NCBI RefSeq assembly: GCF_017948675.1
Contig: NZ_JAGFBU010000002.1
Span: forward strand, 478,939 to 542,938
From: Flavobacterium flabelliforme
GTDB taxonomy: Bacteria > Bacteroidota > Bacteroidia > Flavobacteriales > Flavobacteriaceae
Length of the DNA stretch: 64,000 bases
Direction: 5' to 3'
Shown: positions 10,862 through 64,000 of the stretch, piece by piece
Layout: each line of letters opens with the position of its first letter
How positions within the stretch are numbered: the first letter of the stretch is position 1
Position numbers and translations under genes: made by a program
The notes under the pieces: generated by a model
Told to the model about the DNA's origin: nothing
The model's database searches: none
What the model saw: only the letters and a program-made list of their open reading frames with translations

Positions 10862-10982
10862 GGCTATTAATTTGATTCTTGAAATAGAAGAAACTTCAAA
10901 TGGATTTATTACTAAAACTAAGCCTTCTGTAAAAGTTTAAAACTCTTTTTTACTATTATAGAAGTTCTTTTTACAACTCGTT

Positions 10983-11081
10983 CCTAGCCCGGATAGTAGT
11001 GAAAATCCTTTATTGCTATTTTAGCCTTTTTAGAGGCGTGAAAGAGCAATAAAGATTGTAGCGGATAGCCGGATTAGCTCC
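10983..11081 (+). repeat. Dispersed intergenic element, copy C
   Basis: Reads CCTAGCCCGGATAGTAGTG AAAATCC, a variable middle, then AAAGATTGTAGCGGATAGCC. The middle is a hairpin: AATC-C-TTTATTGCT pairs with AGCAATAAA-GATT. Copy D at 47.3 kb keeps the same pairing with different bases. It sits directly after the stop of the ABC ATPase gene (minus strand), pointing the other way. Confidence 0.65.
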
Positions 11082-12981: not shown

Positions 12982-13611
12982 TTAATCCGCTATTTTATAA
13001 ATGGATGTAATTTCTTTAAAGATAGCATCAACATCGATATTTAAATCTATTAATTCTCCGTTGTGAATATCAAAAACCCATCCGTACACTTTTAGATTGC
13101 GTTGTCTATTGGCTCTCTGAACTTCAGCGGTTTTAATCACGTTGATGCATTGTTCTTGAACATTCAACTCTACTAATCTTTTGTATTTTTGACCTTCCTC
13201 TTCTATTGCATCAAGCTCTTGTCTGTGAAGACGGTATACATCACGTATGTTTCTTAACCATGGATTTAAAATTCCTAAATCGGCTTGTTGCATGGCAGCA
13301 AGTACACCGCCACAACCATAATGGCCACAAACTACAATGTGATTTACTTTTAAACTCGTTACGGCATAATTAATAACAGACATCGAATTAAGGTCTGTAT
13401 TGGGAACCATATTAGCAATATTTCTGTGTACAAAAACTTGTCCAGGTTCTAATCCCATTAGATCTTCGGCAGAAACGCGGCTATCAGAACAACCTATATA
13501 AAGGAATTCAGGAGTTTGTCCGTCGCCTAATTTGTCAAAATATTTTTCGTCGCTTTGAAGCTTTTTTGCAATCCAATTGCGGTTATTCTCGAAGATCTGT
13601 TTGATGTCCAT
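12982..13611 (-). CDS. Beta-class carbonic anhydrase
   Basis: The enzyme interconverts CO2 and bicarbonate in the cytoplasm. Zinc ligands are visible: Cys41 in GCSDSRV, His97 and Cys100 in CGHYGCGG, with the Asp43/Arg45 dyad of the beta class. Length 209 is normal. There is no signal peptide. The gene runs in the same direction as the upstream methyltransferase gene with a 30-base gap, but has its own TATATTTG box in that gap and its own terminator. No SulP or BicA transporter lies nearby, so a general bicarbonate-supply role is likely. Confidence 0.95.
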   Translation of the reverse strand: MDIKQIFENNRNWIAKKLQSDEKYFDKLGDGQTPEFLYIGCSDSRVSAEDLMGLEPGQVFVHRNIANMVPNTDLNSMSVINYAVTSLKVNHIVVCGHYGCGGVLAAMQQADLGILNPWLRNIRDVYRLHRQELDAIEEEGQKYKRLVELNVQEQCINVIKTAEVQRANRQRNLKVYGWVFDIHNGELIDLNIDVDAIFKEITSIYKIAD

Positions 13612-47102: not shown

Positions 47103-47271
47103 GATTATTTTGAATGTAAGCTTTTTTAGTTTTTAGAAAATCATAAATCTGAATGATAGCTATTAAATTTTTTTGTTTTTGAAATAGTACTACTGACAAA
47201 CAGAAAAACTTATTTGTTAAGTTAAAATCTAAGAATTTATAAACAGACTTTTTTCTACTTTTTTTTTGCAC

Positions 47272-47342
47272 AAGGGATTGTAGTGAAAATCCTTTTTATG
47301 CGGAGGAAAGGAGCATAAAAAGATTGTAGCGAAAAGCCCGAC
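47272..47342 (+). repeat. Dispersed intergenic element, copy D
   Basis: Reads AGGGATTGTAGTGAAAATCC, hairpin, AGATTGTAGCGAAAAGCCCG. The inner hairpin AATC-C-TTTTTATGC / GCATAAAAA-GATT keeps the pairing of copy C (TTTATTGCT / AGCAATAAA) with different bases. It is followed directly by the long hairpin at 47342-47383. Confidence 0.65.
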
Positions 47343-47383
47343 CTTATAACCACTTGCCGATCGTTCGGGAAGTGGTTATAAGG
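47342..47383. terminator. Long hairpin after the M28 peptidase gene
   Basis: CCTTATAACCACTT and AAGTGGTTATAAGG form a perfect 14-base stem, topped by CCGA-TCGT-TCGG. It starts 14 bases beyond the peptidase stop. There is no good T-run, so it may be an RNA-protecting or composite-repeat structure more than a classic terminator. Confidence 0.55.
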
Positions 47384-60492: not shown

Positions 60493-61530
60493 TTAATACA
60501 ATTTCCTCTTTAACCAAAAAGCAACATTTACCAAAAGGATTAGAGCTGGAACTTCTACTAATGGCCCTATAACTCCTGCAAATGCTTGCCCACTGTTGAT
60601 TCCAAAAACTCCAATTGAAACAGCAATGGCAAGTTCAAAATTATTTCCAGCAGCAGTAAATGAAAGTGCAACACTATCTCTGTAGTCAGCTCCAATCTTT
60701 TTTGAAACTAGAAACATCAACAAAAACATTATTGTAAAGAAAATTACTAATGGTATTGCAACTCGTACAACATCCATTGGTAAGTCAACAATCATCTCTC
60801 CTTTTAAACTAAACATAATTACAATTGTAAAAAGTAAAGCTAATAAAGTAATAGGTGATACGAATGGAACAAATTTTTGATCAAACCACTTTTTGCCCAT
60901 AAACCTCTGAATGCTATAGCGACTTAATACAGCTAATGCAAATGGAATTCCAAGATAAATACCTACTGTGGTAGCAATTTGCGCAATTGTTATGTTCAGC
61001 GCTAAACCTTTTATGCCAAATAAAGGTAACATAACTTCTAGATAGAAATAGGCGTATAAACTAAAAAAGAAAACTTGAATTAAACTATTTATACCAATTA
61101 GGCCGGCAGTTAGTTCTCTATTTCCCTCTGCTAATTCATTCCATACAATAACCATTGCGATGCAAGGAGCAATCCCAATAATTATTAAGCCTGTCATGTA
61201 TTCTGGATAATCTCTTAAGAAGAAAGTAGCTAATAAAAACATTAAAAATGGACCAATTATCCATGTAATTAGAAATGAAGAGGCTAATAATTTTGGTTTT
61301 TCAAAGATCAATGTAATTTTCGAAAAATCGATTTTAGTCAATGGAGGATACATCATCAAAATTAACCCAATTGCTAAAGGGATATTTGTAGTACCGCTAG
61401 AAAAAGAATTAATGAAAGTGCTACTCGATGGTATAAAATAACCAATTGAAATACCTATTATTATCGCGATAAATATCCAAACAGTTAGGTATTTGTCGAG
61501 AAATTTTATCCTTTTTTTAGATGATTTCAT
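60493..61530 (-). CDS. ACR3-family arsenite efflux transporter
   Basis: The 345-residue membrane protein has about ten hydrophobic segments and matches the ACR3 family, which expels arsenite using the proton gradient. Marks include PLAIGLILMMYPPL, IGIAPCIAMVIVW with the conserved Cys that binds arsenite, and AAGNNFELAIAVSIGVFG. E. coli-type ArsB is unrelated. It is the last gene of the arsenic cluster. A gap of 167 bases separates it from the DUF6428 gene and contains a separate -7 box. No arsenate reductase gene is found in the window. Confidence 0.93.
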   Translation of the reverse strand: MKSSKKRIKFLDKYLTVWIFIAIIIGISIGYFIPSSSTFINSFSSGTTNIPLAIGLILMMYPPLTKIDFSKITLIFEKPKLLASSFLITWIIGPFLMFLLATFFLRDYPEYMTGLIIIGIAPCIAMVIVWNELAEGNRELTAGLIGINSLIQVFFFSLYAYFYLEVMLPLFGIKGLALNITIAQIATTVGIYLGIPFALAVLSRYSIQRFMGKKWFDQKFVPFVSPITLLALLFTIVIMFSLKGEMIVDLPMDVVRVAIPLVIFFTIMFLLMFLVSKKIGADYRDSVALSFTAAGNNFELAIAVSIGVFGINSGQAFAGVIGPLVEVPALILLVNVAFWLKRKLY

Positions 61531-61623
61531 TTTGTGATTTTATTTGAAATAATATAAAGAATATTTCAGTGTTAGTTTGTAATTATTCGCTCTTTTAGGT
61601 TGATTCGCTTCTGTTTTTTTAAT

Positions 61624-61659
61624 AAAGCAACAAATATAAAATTTATCATTTGTTGCTTT
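61624..61659 (-). promoter_or_regulatory. Promoter and hairpin upstream of the ACR3 gene
   Basis: On the minus strand AAAGCAACAAAT and ATTTGTTGCTTT form a 12-base stem with a 12-base loop. The -7 box TATATTTG (61631-61638) lies inside it. It may be an attenuator for the upstream gene, an operator, or a second promoter for the pump. Confidence 0.45.
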
Positions 61660-61697
61660 AGGTTATTGAATTCGCCTACATTCTTTAATTTAAAAAA

Positions 61698-62168
61698 TCA
61701 GCAACAACTTCCTCCAGGAGTACAACTATTAGGTTGACTTGTGATTTCAGATAATTTTACTTTTGGTTTAGATGCAGGAATACCGCATTGATCTTCGGCT
61801 AAACAAGCAGTTTGTTTGTTGATTAAAACAAAAGATTGTCCATTAAAACCCAAATCATATTTTCCAATAGTTTCTGCTTGGTATTCTACTTCAATTTCGT
61901 AGTCTTCTATCCCTAAAATCTTTTCTGAAAGTGCAATAATCGATAGTAATTTCTTTGGTTTCAAACGATGATCAACGTCATTTGCATCCCATAATTGGAA
62001 ATTCGCAACAGTTTCTTTTCTAACTTTACCTCCACAATCAATAAAGTGTTTCGTTATTAGCCCAACTTCGGTCACGTGAAAATGTTCTGGAACAAAGTTA
62101 CCGTTTGGTAATAAAAAAGCAACATTTTCTAATGTACTTAACGCCGTTTTAATTTCTGATAATTTCAT
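61698..62168 (-). CDS. DUF6428 family protein
   Basis: The 156-residue protein resembles the DUF6428 family, which sits in arsenic operons of Bacteroidota. It has the characteristic VPEHFHVTEVGLITK (about residues 26-40) and KETVANFQLWDANDVDHRL. The C-terminal tail SCTPGGSCC plus inner Cys residues (TACLAEDQCGI) suggest metal or metalloid binding. Its exact function is not known to me. It starts 20 bases after the arsR stop, so the two are co-transcribed. Confidence 0.82.
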   Translation of the reverse strand: MKLSEIKTALSTLENVAFLLPNGNFVPEHFHVTEVGLITKHFIDCGGKVRKETVANFQLWDANDVDHRLKPKKLLSIIALSEKILGIEDYEIEVEYQAETIGKYDLGFNGQSFVLINKQTACLAEDQCGIPASKPKVKLSEITSQPNSCTPGGSCC

Positions 62169-62187
62169 TTTTTTATTATTTTATAAA

Positions 62188-62520
62188 TCAACAACATTGA
62201 TTTTTGTTTTTTTCTAAATAGGTATTTATATGGTCAAAGAAAATTTTTAATTTACTAAAACCTTCCTTGTTTAAGCAGTAACATATTTTATTTCCTTCAA
62301 CAGTACCTTTTATAAGCCCTGCATTTTTTAACTCTTTTAGATGCTGAGAAACGGTAGGTTGTGACAAAGGCAGTTCATTTACAATGTCACCGCAAATACA
62401 ACTGTCTACTTTTATTAGATGTTCTATAATTGCAATTCTCGAAGGGTGTCCTATTGCTTTAGTCAATATAGCAATTTGATTTTGTTCTTCAGTAAAACAT
62501 TCTGATTTAGTAGTTCCCAA
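62188..62520 (-). CDS. arsR: ArsR-family metalloregulator
   Basis: The 110-residue winged-helix repressor has the As(III)-binding motif CICGDIV near residue 45 and the recognition helix LSQPTVSQHLKELKNAG. Further cysteines occur near the N-terminus (SECFTEE) and at the end (NKNQCC). I place the start at the TTG at 62520 (MGTTKSECFTEEQ), since homologues begin this way and the longer open frame from 62571 would translate through the promoter and its palindrome. It leads the DUF6428 gene and perhaps ACR3. It should release DNA on arsenite binding. Confidence 0.9.
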   Translation of the reverse strand: MGTTKSECFTEEQNQIAILTKAIGHPSRIAIIEHLIKVDSCICGDIVNELPLSQPTVSQHLKELKNAGLIKGTVEGNKICYCLNKEGFSKLKIFFDHINTYLEKNKNQCC

Positions 62521-62532
62521 GTTTGTATATAT

Positions 62533-62548
62533 TAATATTGCAATATTA
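62533..62548. promoter_or_regulatory. Palindromic operator of arsR
   Basis: TAATATTGCAATATTA is a perfect 16-base palindrome. On the minus strand it falls between TTTG (about 62554-62557) and a degenerate -7 region TAATATAT, so ArsR binding here would block RNA polymerase. Confidence 0.6.
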
Positions 62549-62565
62549 CGATGTTCAAATAAAAA

Positions 62566-62600
62566 GGACAAATGATAATTGTATTAATTATTATTTGTCC
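62566..62600 (-). terminator. Terminator of the HMA-like gene
   Basis: GGACAAAT-G-ATAAT and ATTAT-T-ATTTGTCC pair with one mismatch; the minus strand continues with five Ts. It lies right against the arsR promoter. Confidence 0.65.
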
Positions 62601-62619
62601 TATGGATTATTTAATTTAT

Positions 62620-62880
62620 TTAAAGGTCAAATAAATCCTTTGGAATGGCGTGAAATCCAACTTCGCGAACTTTATTCTCGATTTCTGTAATAGGAATCAT
62701 CTTAGTAGTAAAAACGGTAAATTCTCTTGGAAAAATTTCCATATTCAATACCACTTCCTTGATTCCCTCAAGTTCTAATAGGATCGTCTTGATTTGCAGT
62801 AAATCTTTATCTTCCATGGCGTTTGTTCCGAATTTTTTACCATCATTTCCTGGAATTACGTTGTCTGTTATTATGCTCAT
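62620..62880 (-). CDS. HMA-like small protein lacking the metal cysteines
   Basis: The 86-residue protein fits the beta-alpha-beta-beta-alpha-beta plan of heavy-metal-associated domains: LLQIKTILLELEGIKEVVLN, FPREFTVFTTK, PITEIENKVREVGFHAIPK. The CxxC metal site is absent, so it may be structural or regulatory and not a copper chaperone. It lies just upstream of arsR with its own terminator. Its place in the arsenic cluster is by position only. Confidence 0.65.
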   Translation of the reverse strand: MSIITDNVIPGNDGKKFGTNAMEDKDLLQIKTILLELEGIKEVVLNMEIFPREFTVFTTKMIPITEIENKVREVGFHAIPKDLFDL

Positions 62881-63034: not shown

Positions 63035-63391
63035 ATGAATGATATAGAAAATAAATTGAATTTAGATAAGCAAAAAAATAGAGATAATAAAGTTCCAGAT
63101 TCTCTTTTGTACCCACCAAGTGAAGATATTTACAAACAATTAAAAAAAGAATCGGACATAGATCCAGAAAACATATCTAAAAACAAAGTGCCTGTAGAGA
63201 TAGGTAATACGGGTGATTTTAACGAAAAGGATTTTAATCAGGATAATTCTGGAGCAGATTTAGATGTTCCAGGCGCTGAGTTGGATGACCAAGCCGAACA
63301 AATCGGTAGTGAAGACGAAGAAAATAATTATTACAGTTTAGGAGGAGATGATCACAATGATTTAGATGAAAATACACCTGATACTATTTAA
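63035..63391 (+). CDS. Acidic hypothetical protein
   Basis: The 118-residue protein is soluble, very acidic in its second half (GADLDVPGAELDDQAEQIGS, then EDEENNYYSLGGDDHND) and probably partly disordered. The motif YPPSEDIYKQLKKE and the VPGAELDD block occur in a family of Bacteroidota proteins that I recall as hypothetical; some are stress-induced. No enzyme fold is seen. No TAnnTTTG box is visible before the ATG. The long hairpin at 63472-63529 may end its transcript. Confidence 0.65.
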   Translation: MNDIENKLNLDKQKNRDNKVPDSLLYPPSEDIYKQLKKESDIDPENISKNKVPVEIGNTGDFNEKDFNQDNSGADLDVPGAELDDQAEQIGSEDEENNYYSLGGDDHNDLDENTPDTI

Positions 63392-63471: not shown

Positions 63472-63529
63472 CCCATCCTAAAAAAGAGGCTATATCCGAG
63501 TTCGGTTATAGCCTCTTTTTTAGAATGGG
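63472..63529. terminator. Long two-way hairpin after the acidic hypothetical gene
   Basis: CTAAAAAAGAGGCTATA (63478-63494) and TATAGCCTCTTTTTTAG (63507-63523) form a perfect 17-base stem. It extends outward by CCCAT/ATGGG and inward by CCGA-GT-TCGG. The apical CCGA/TCGG is also present in the hairpin at 47342-47383, and both hairpins touch the GCCCGAC end of a dispersed element. Confidence 0.75.
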
Positions 63530-63610
63530 TCGGGCTATTCGCTTCAAGTCCTCGTCAAGTTCCGTTATACTTCACTTAACTGTGGGCTTTCCGCTGCTAT
63601 CCCTAACGCG
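63528..63610 (-). repeat. Dispersed intergenic element, copy E
   Basis: On the minus strand it reads GTTAGGGATAGCAGCGGAAA at one end and GAAGCGAATAGCCCGACCC at the other, the same end blocks as copies A-D. The middle is unrelated. The GCCCGACC end abuts the long hairpin. It lies after a plus-strand gene and points the other way. Confidence 0.55.
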
Positions 63611-63698
63611 ATTTTGTTTTTCTCAGCCGTTTAGAAGAGGTTAGGCGTAACAAACAATTTACTATTCTAGATCACAGTCTGCTCAATAGGATTACTAC

Positions 63699-63985
63699 AC
63701 CTATATATAGGTAAGAAAAAAAATACCTACCTATATATAGGTGTAAAAAAATAGCAGTTTTATAAATGGTAGTATTGCTTTACCTATATATAAGACAACA
63801 ATAGCAATCCTAGCGCGATATTATATTGACATTTGATTGTGCCTAAGAAGAAACTCCTACCTATATATAGGTGTCAAAACAGTATTAATGTAAATTCTAG
63901 TGCCATTTTACCTATATAAGACAAGAATAGCAATAATTAAAGAAGATAGAAGCCTTTAAAATGATTTACCTATTATATAATAGGT
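63699..63985. repeat. Array of ACCTATATATAGGT palindromes
   Basis: Perfect 14-base palindromes ACCTATATATAGGT lie at 63699, 63729 and 63859, an 18-base variant ACCTATTATATAATAGGT at 63968, and one-sided copies (ACCTATATA.., then AAGACAA) at 63782 and 63910. Positions 63729-63858 and 63859 onward are two imperfect tandem units of about 130 bases: both hold a palindrome, then CAGT.TT.AT, then TTTACCTATATA and AAGACAA.AATAGCAAT. No open frame of note lies in 63611-64000. The array runs to or past the right edge. Confidence 0.8.
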
Positions 63986-64000
63986 AGCTTTAAGTAAGAT

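Follow-up and report, generated by a model that had tools for sequence, protein, structure and literature searches.

A palindrome array upstream of rRNA operons in Flavobacterium flabelliforme and the recurrence of a related motif at rRNA operons of the genus

In Escherichia coli, rRNA operons carry Fis sites and an UP element before promoter P1, which together form the upstream activating region. NrdR boxes, which belong to ribonucleotide reductase operons, are 16-bp TATATA-centred palindromes paired about three helical turns apart, and phage operators of the 434 type are 14-bp palindromes with an A/T centre that occur in arrays. The control of rRNA synthesis lies at the heart of growth decisions and, to our knowledge, is understood in detail mainly for E. 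coli and B. subtilis. A study in E. coli reports that the spatial clustering of rRNA operons depends in cis on a Fis-binding site upstream of P1, but not on Fis itself (PMC12037070).

The stretch of DNA analysed here (64,000 nucleotides, hereafter the window) corresponds to bases 478939–542938 of contig C21 in the 3.63 Mb draft genome of Flavobacterium flabelliforme, which is divided into 57 contigs. A cluster of palindromes spans positions 63699–63986, near the right edge of the window. The reading we favour, with a probability of roughly 60%, is that of an rRNA operon upstream region with six full or partial palindromes centred on TATATATA, likely sites for a dimeric protein that would act remotely on predicted promoters ~ 200–480 bp downstream. 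The arrangement resembles the E. coli upstream activating region in having several protein-type sites before tandem (here, predicted) rRNA promoters, repeated across the operons of one genome, but differs from it in motif, distance (208–477 bp) and lineage, and in that no Fis passed the cut-off in 14 genomes of the genus. With NrdR boxes it shares a paired spacing, sites 1 and 2 being 30 bp apart, whereas its target is rRNA, each arm bears an extra C/G, and NrdR was detected in 0/14 genus genomes. Unlike phage operators of the 434 type, the array is fixed to rRNA operons, and no phage family was recognised among five neighbouring proteins. The kind of element, a multi-site upstream region of rRNA promoters, is therefore a known one, while neither the motif nor a factor presumed to bind it turned up in the literature searched; none of the open-licence matches listed dealt with the motif or, by title or abstract, with rRNA promoter architecture in Flavobacterium.

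A preliminary description of the window had counted four full palindromes and two half copies, set in imperfect tandem units of about 130 bases. Both half copies were recovered, but only three of the full palindromes are exact copies of ACCTATATATAGGT, the fourth being a different and longer palindrome, TACCTATTATATAATAGGTA (Table 1). As to the tandem units, no repeat was reported by Tandem Repeats Finder at a score of 30, but a diverged duplication is present: when the two units were aligned with each other, 92 of 142 columns were identical and the score was 39, whereas 300 mononucleotide shuffles scored at most 15. The earlier view that the array is not a product of chance held up, as five matches to ACCTATATATAGGT with up to two mismatches were found in the window (four in the array and one at 13492) against an expectation of 0.20, a count reached in 0/100 shuffles.

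Table 1. Features of the palindrome array and the adjoining block (positions within the window)
Feature	Position	Strand	Remarks
28-bp inverted repeat	63472..63529		93% complementary, 2-nt gap, T-runs on both sides
Flavo-1-RNA-like element	63524..63614	- (opposite rRNA operon)	33.4 bits, family cut-off 42, E 2.9e-5
Site 1, exact palindrome ACCTATATATAGGT	63699..63712		identical in 4/4 arrays
Site 2, exact palindrome ACCTATATATAGGT	63729..63742		30 bp from site 1; exact in 3/4 arrays
Two diverged units, 130 + 127 bases	63729..63985		each with one full palindrome and one half site
Site 3, half copy ACCTATATATAAGA	63782..63795		from motif scan of window
Site 4, exact palindrome ACCTATATATAGGT	63859..63872		exact in 3/4 arrays
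Site 5, short half copy ACCTATATAAGA	63910..63921		read from sequence
Site 6, longer palindrome TACCTATTATATAATAGGTA	63967..63986		palindromic in 2/4 arrays

Across the whole genome the exact 14-mer ACCTATATATAGGT occurs 10 times, compared to no occurrences of its reversed control, which again sets it well apart from the background rate. All 10 copies fall within four arrays, each located where a contig stops: C10 has one at either end, and C21 (the contig of the window) and C32 have one each on the right. The four contig ends align from a common hairpin through the array, with the other three array copies 85–97% identical to that of the window, and differ in sequence outside this common block. 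Three of the arrays overlap exactly with the 5.7-kb contig C4 (C10-left and C10-right by 64 bases each, C32-right by 127 bases), the only contig of this genome found to bear 16S, with the gene order 16S-tRNA-tRNA-23S-5S. For the 16S gene, the best among the matches listed in the plasmid collection was Flavobacterium limnophilum at 91.6%; the genus also agrees with the Flavo-1 RNAs and the promoter style. The last 127 bases of C21 recur inside C10-right, 150 bases before the start of C4. Taken together, the exact overlaps of three arrays and the identity of C21 to a sister copy place the array in the upstream region of the rRNA operon, and the four contig ends are rRNA-operon flanks collapsed by the assembler. 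For the window itself, where C21 stops 150 bases short of C4, the junction with an rRNA operon is very likely, judging from the sister copy. The window stops at its right edge because the contig ends there, so the run of repeats that had been expected to continue past this edge instead meets the end of C21. Since draft assemblies break at rRNA operons, such arrays come to lie at contig ends and are easily missed. In addition, the left end of contig C54 (bases 1–127) is identical over 127 bases to the common hairpin and Flavo-1 block, which suggests a fifth rRNA-operon flank; the arrays themselves number at least four.

Within its own genome the motif is nearly confined to these places. Full-array copies were seen at rRNA flanks only (40 of 53 candidates scored). 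When up to two mismatches were allowed, 29 sites were obtained across the genome; 15 of them belong to the arrays, and the other 14 are close in number to the 13 sites of the reversed control. There is no sign of a wider regulon.

Two known proteins were considered as binders and rejected. NrdR was positive in 9/14 control genomes and in 0/14 genus genomes, while Fis exceeded the cut-off in 0/14 genus genomes and 1/14 control genomes; weak Fis-family matches, seen in 11 of the 14 genus genomes, were parts of open frames of 433–487 codons. A search for an autoregulated binder gene covered 22 non-rRNA sites, comprising 8 of the 12 from the near-complete genomes described below, three weak sites from the own genome and 11 exact sites from other genomes. 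Fourteen of these were located in open frames of 120 codons or more. Matches between the nearby proteins of different genomes were limited to two groups: in one, three genomes share a gene of ~ 570–590 codons that contains the site, and in the other, two genomes have the site at the same place outside a long frame.

The sequence TAnnTTTG corresponds to the −7 box of sigma-A in Flavobacterium psychrophilum (PMC9723704). Three tandem TTG-N-TAnnTTTG sites precede the 16S start motif, by 495, 386 and 239 bases, and are predicted rRNA promoters by their match to this consensus. Measured in the sister copy C10-right, the starts of sites 1 to 6 precede the first TTG-N-TAnnTTTG site by 477, 447, 394, 317, 266 and 208 bp. 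Other upstream regions of the genus, among those listed, mostly have two or three such sites and some have one. The distance between palindrome and promoter anchor varies among operons and species, so that a contact with RNA polymerase at a set position is improbable; a mode of action by looping, through local architecture or by bringing rRNA operons together would be more plausible. With the first-promoter distance and the half-site spacing both varying, a nucleoid-type or looping factor fits better than an activator working from a fixed position.

A BLAST search with the C10-right array plus P1, in which two candidates per genome were scored, gave matches in 175 of 398 genus genomes. Among the matches listed, those of relatives start at query position 445 or later (~ 145 bp ending at P1), with the single exception of genome G019 (query 109–153, 84%), the sole relative match within the array. 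The ~ 110–145 bp ending at P1 were matched by BLAST across much of the genus. The array itself is mostly unalignable in relatives, yet a related motif, TACCTTATATATAGGA, recurs upstream of their rRNA operons, and a direct reading of the same stretch revealed related motifs in the corresponding place.

Mismatch counts were made in 68 rRNA-upstream regions from 44 genomes, excluding the own genome and including five regions from other families. These were drawn from 90 anchored loci, after leaving out six loci without a promoter anchor, regions shorter than 350 bases and repeated regions; the 16S start was contained in the same locus in 37 of the 68 regions, and the other 31 rest on the promoter pattern or a BLAST match. 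With up to two mismatches, ACCTATATATAGGT was found 11 times, compared to a mean of 0.4 in 15 shuffles and one occurrence of the reversed control. With up to three mismatches, 38 occurrences were counted (shuffle mean 3.1, reversed control 3). Two further genomes, G236 and G296, have exact copies before rRNA-type leaders that are anchored by the promoter pattern; 16S itself is not contained in these two loci. In total, the exact 14-mer is held by 15 of 299 genus genomes, the own one included; of the loci with exact copies checked in other genomes, 7/11 were inside long open frames.

The same signal emerged from a k-mer listing made without motif input (63 regions, 39 genus genomes), which gave two groups of words, one from a Flavo-1-like element and the other consisting of CTATATATAA (22/39 genomes) and CCTTATATATAG (15/39 genomes). 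Motif fitting was applied to 89 regions of 48 genomes, excluding regions that share many 40-mers, regions from outside the genus and the own genome, and resulted in TACCTTATATATAGGA. In a split-half procedure on this set, 25 of the 40 held-out regions (16/24 genomes) scored 12 bits or more with the matrix, compared to a mean of 0.8 in 10 shuffles and 0/91 slices of the window; at 10 bits, the corresponding values were 30/40, 2.8 and 6/91. As the seed was the motif already seen in relatives, this test is not fully blind. Models fitted to shuffled sets also assigned a site in most regions, but these were unrelated and weaker motifs (9–10 vs. ~ 17 bits), and for this reason the split-half score counts alone were used as evidence. 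The pattern CCT[AT]7AGG occurred 21 times, in 15 of 48 genomes, with 0, 0 and 1 occurrences of three control letterings. The inner A/T stretch of the motif is 6 long in the own 14-mers, mostly 7 in relatives and sometimes 6 or 8–11.

Placement relative to the operon was assessed in 12 near-complete genus genomes (one or two contigs each), counting only operons with the exact 16S start pattern. Of the 27 sites matching CYTATATATARG, 15 were within 1 kb upstream of 16S, a space that makes up 0.13% of the DNA (for 9 of the 12 genomes, rounded sizes were used), and the remaining 12 compare with a control count of 13. The 15 upstream sites belong to 14 of 57 operons and five of the 12 genomes (2, 5, 1, 3 and 4 sites), and in the other seven none was seen upstream of any 16S found. 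The p value for this placement (1e-36) assumes independent sites, an assumption that does not hold for operons within one genome. For a view beyond the genus, 86 loci whose upstream sequence was long enough were picked by hand and compared. The pattern C[CT]TATATATA[AG]G was present in 11 of 62 genus regions (6/22 genomes), 0/11 regions of other genera of the family and 1/13 of other families; for CCT[AT]{5,8}AGG the numbers were 12/62 (control letterings 2, 0 and 5), 3/11 and 2/13. There is no clear signal outside the genus, and our claim is limited to the genus. A scan of named genomes for paired palindromes returned five contigs, none of them titled as Flavobacterium (own or very near genomes were possibly absent from the collection).

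In this genome the array thus precedes more than one rRNA operon, and related motifs occupy the same place in relatives; it is a lineage-specific cis-element of rRNA operons. That the palindromes may serve as sites for a dimeric protein is suggested by the CC/GG caps around an A/T core, the occurrence of the commonest 13-mer of relatives in both orientations (12 and 7 times) and the near-exclusive rRNA placement in the own genome. A putative dimeric protein would bind the TATATATA-centred palindromes upstream of rRNA operons and, once bound, would help to set the number of ribosomes made, by activation, tuning or clustering of the operons. The suggestion of a multi-site operator in the preliminary description comes closest to this reading: the arrays do precede rRNA operons and the motif is specific to this place, with the regulatory role being putative. 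Against a dimer speaks the variable half-site spacing, with an A/T stretch of 6 to 11, which is unusual for a rigid dimer site; against the reading as a whole speak the lack of a binder among the candidates, the lack of extra conservation among the own copies and the species without the motif. A bolder version, which we put forward tentatively, is that the palindromes are bound by a master regulator of Flavobacterium or by a protein that clusters the operons, a stand-in for Fis dedicated to rRNA only, which would set ribosome output or gather the operons. A dedicated repeated cis-element at rRNA operons is of interest in a large genus where no stand-alone Fis was found (14 genomes), and because it provides a defined bait sequence, the putative trans factor could be fished for directly.

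Among other explanations, we consider it unlikely that the array acts through DNA structure, its alternating A/T cores unwinding or extruding as cruciforms and thereby absorbing negative supercoils behind busy rRNA operons with no dedicated protein. Such a role would agree with the retention of TATATATA cores while half-site spacing varies, and with site 6, which retains a palindrome with longer arms and has a single-stranded DNA fold z of −3.6. Sites 1 and 2 jointly form an 18-bp inverted repeat with a single-stranded DNA fold of −13.9 kcal/mol (z −8.0), but site 4 alone folds weakly (z −1.4). Part of the mismatch signal is due to the alternating A/T core, since a control lettering with a similar core, ACCATATATATGGT, was also enriched in the 68 regions at up to three mismatches (28 vs. 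2.0 shuffled). The reversed lettering with an alternating core, however, was not (3 vs. 2.7 shuffled), meaning that the CC/GG caps matter. Moreover, the commonest form in relatives is a 13-mer, CCTTATATATAGG / CCTATATATAAGG, which accounts for 19 of the 21 occurrences of CCT[AT]7AGG and is not a perfect palindrome.

It is quite unlikely, in our estimate, that the array is a functionless relic, a duplicated stretch of the rRNA flank spread between operons by gene conversion. The likeness of the four copies within one genome is in keeping with this, as are the species without the motif and the variation among own copies, where 13 of 86 motif columns and 64 of 386 other columns were variable (p = 0.87), so that the motif is not less variable than its surroundings. 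A relic of this kind is difficult to reconcile with the arrays of other species, which are mostly unalignable and yet contain the motif well above controls.

The block common to the rRNA flanks begins close to the inverted repeat of Table 1, which aligned in 4/4 contig ends and looks like a two-way transcription terminator, and continues with an element resembling Flavo-1 RNA (Rfam RF01705). Flavo-1 above the family cut-off, on the strand opposite the rRNA operon, was present in 3 of 19 rRNA-flank loci of relatives searched (L139:353-434, L071:609-691 and L218:2203-2280), and words of this element were found upstream of rRNA operons in 18/39 (CCCTAACGC) and 12/39 (CTATCGGGGCTA) genomes. With the Flavo-1-like element on one side of the array and the first predicted rRNA promoter on the other, the target of a regulator could be this divergent RNA, or the RNA together with the rRNA operon. 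We regard this as very unlikely. Although it adjoins the array, Flavo-1 is a separate and more widespread element, and its two above-cut-off copies elsewhere in the window (10982–11079 and 47263–47347) are not accompanied by an exact palindrome; the one further match in the window with up to two mismatches is that at 13492. Furthermore, no consensus promoters (0) pointed towards Flavo-1 on the minus strand of the C32 composite region. Two more Flavo-1 RNAs were noted near other contig ends (L014 and L012), and the family is repeated in the own genome.

The preliminary description had also raised an iteron-like replication origin, a partition site and a MITE-like mobile repeat. Short palindromes repeated at regular-looking spacing would fit these, but they can be dismissed almost entirely, since the four arrays lie at rRNA-operon contig ends, array copies were seen at rRNA flanks only (40 of 53 candidates scored), and no replication, partition or transposase family was recognised among the five adjoining proteins (two of them without any match). 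A plasmid origin of the stretch was likewise rejected, with no match in the plasmid collection.

Of the five proteins adjoining the array in the window, three matched Pfam families and two matched none. The binder gene that the preliminary description had anticipated beside the array was not found; a nearby ArsR-type regulator was rejected because it lies outside the common block, where the sequence differs among the four arrays. Directly before the rRNA flank, at 63035–63391, an acidic protein of 118 aa is encoded, with no Pfam match. The minus-strand genes at 60493–62880 encode an SBF-family transporter, a DUF6428 protein, an ArsR-family regulator and an 86-aa protein without a Pfam match, and look like an arsenic cluster, in which the ArsR-type protein (62188–62571) matches Pfam HTH_5 and adjoins the SBF-family transporter.
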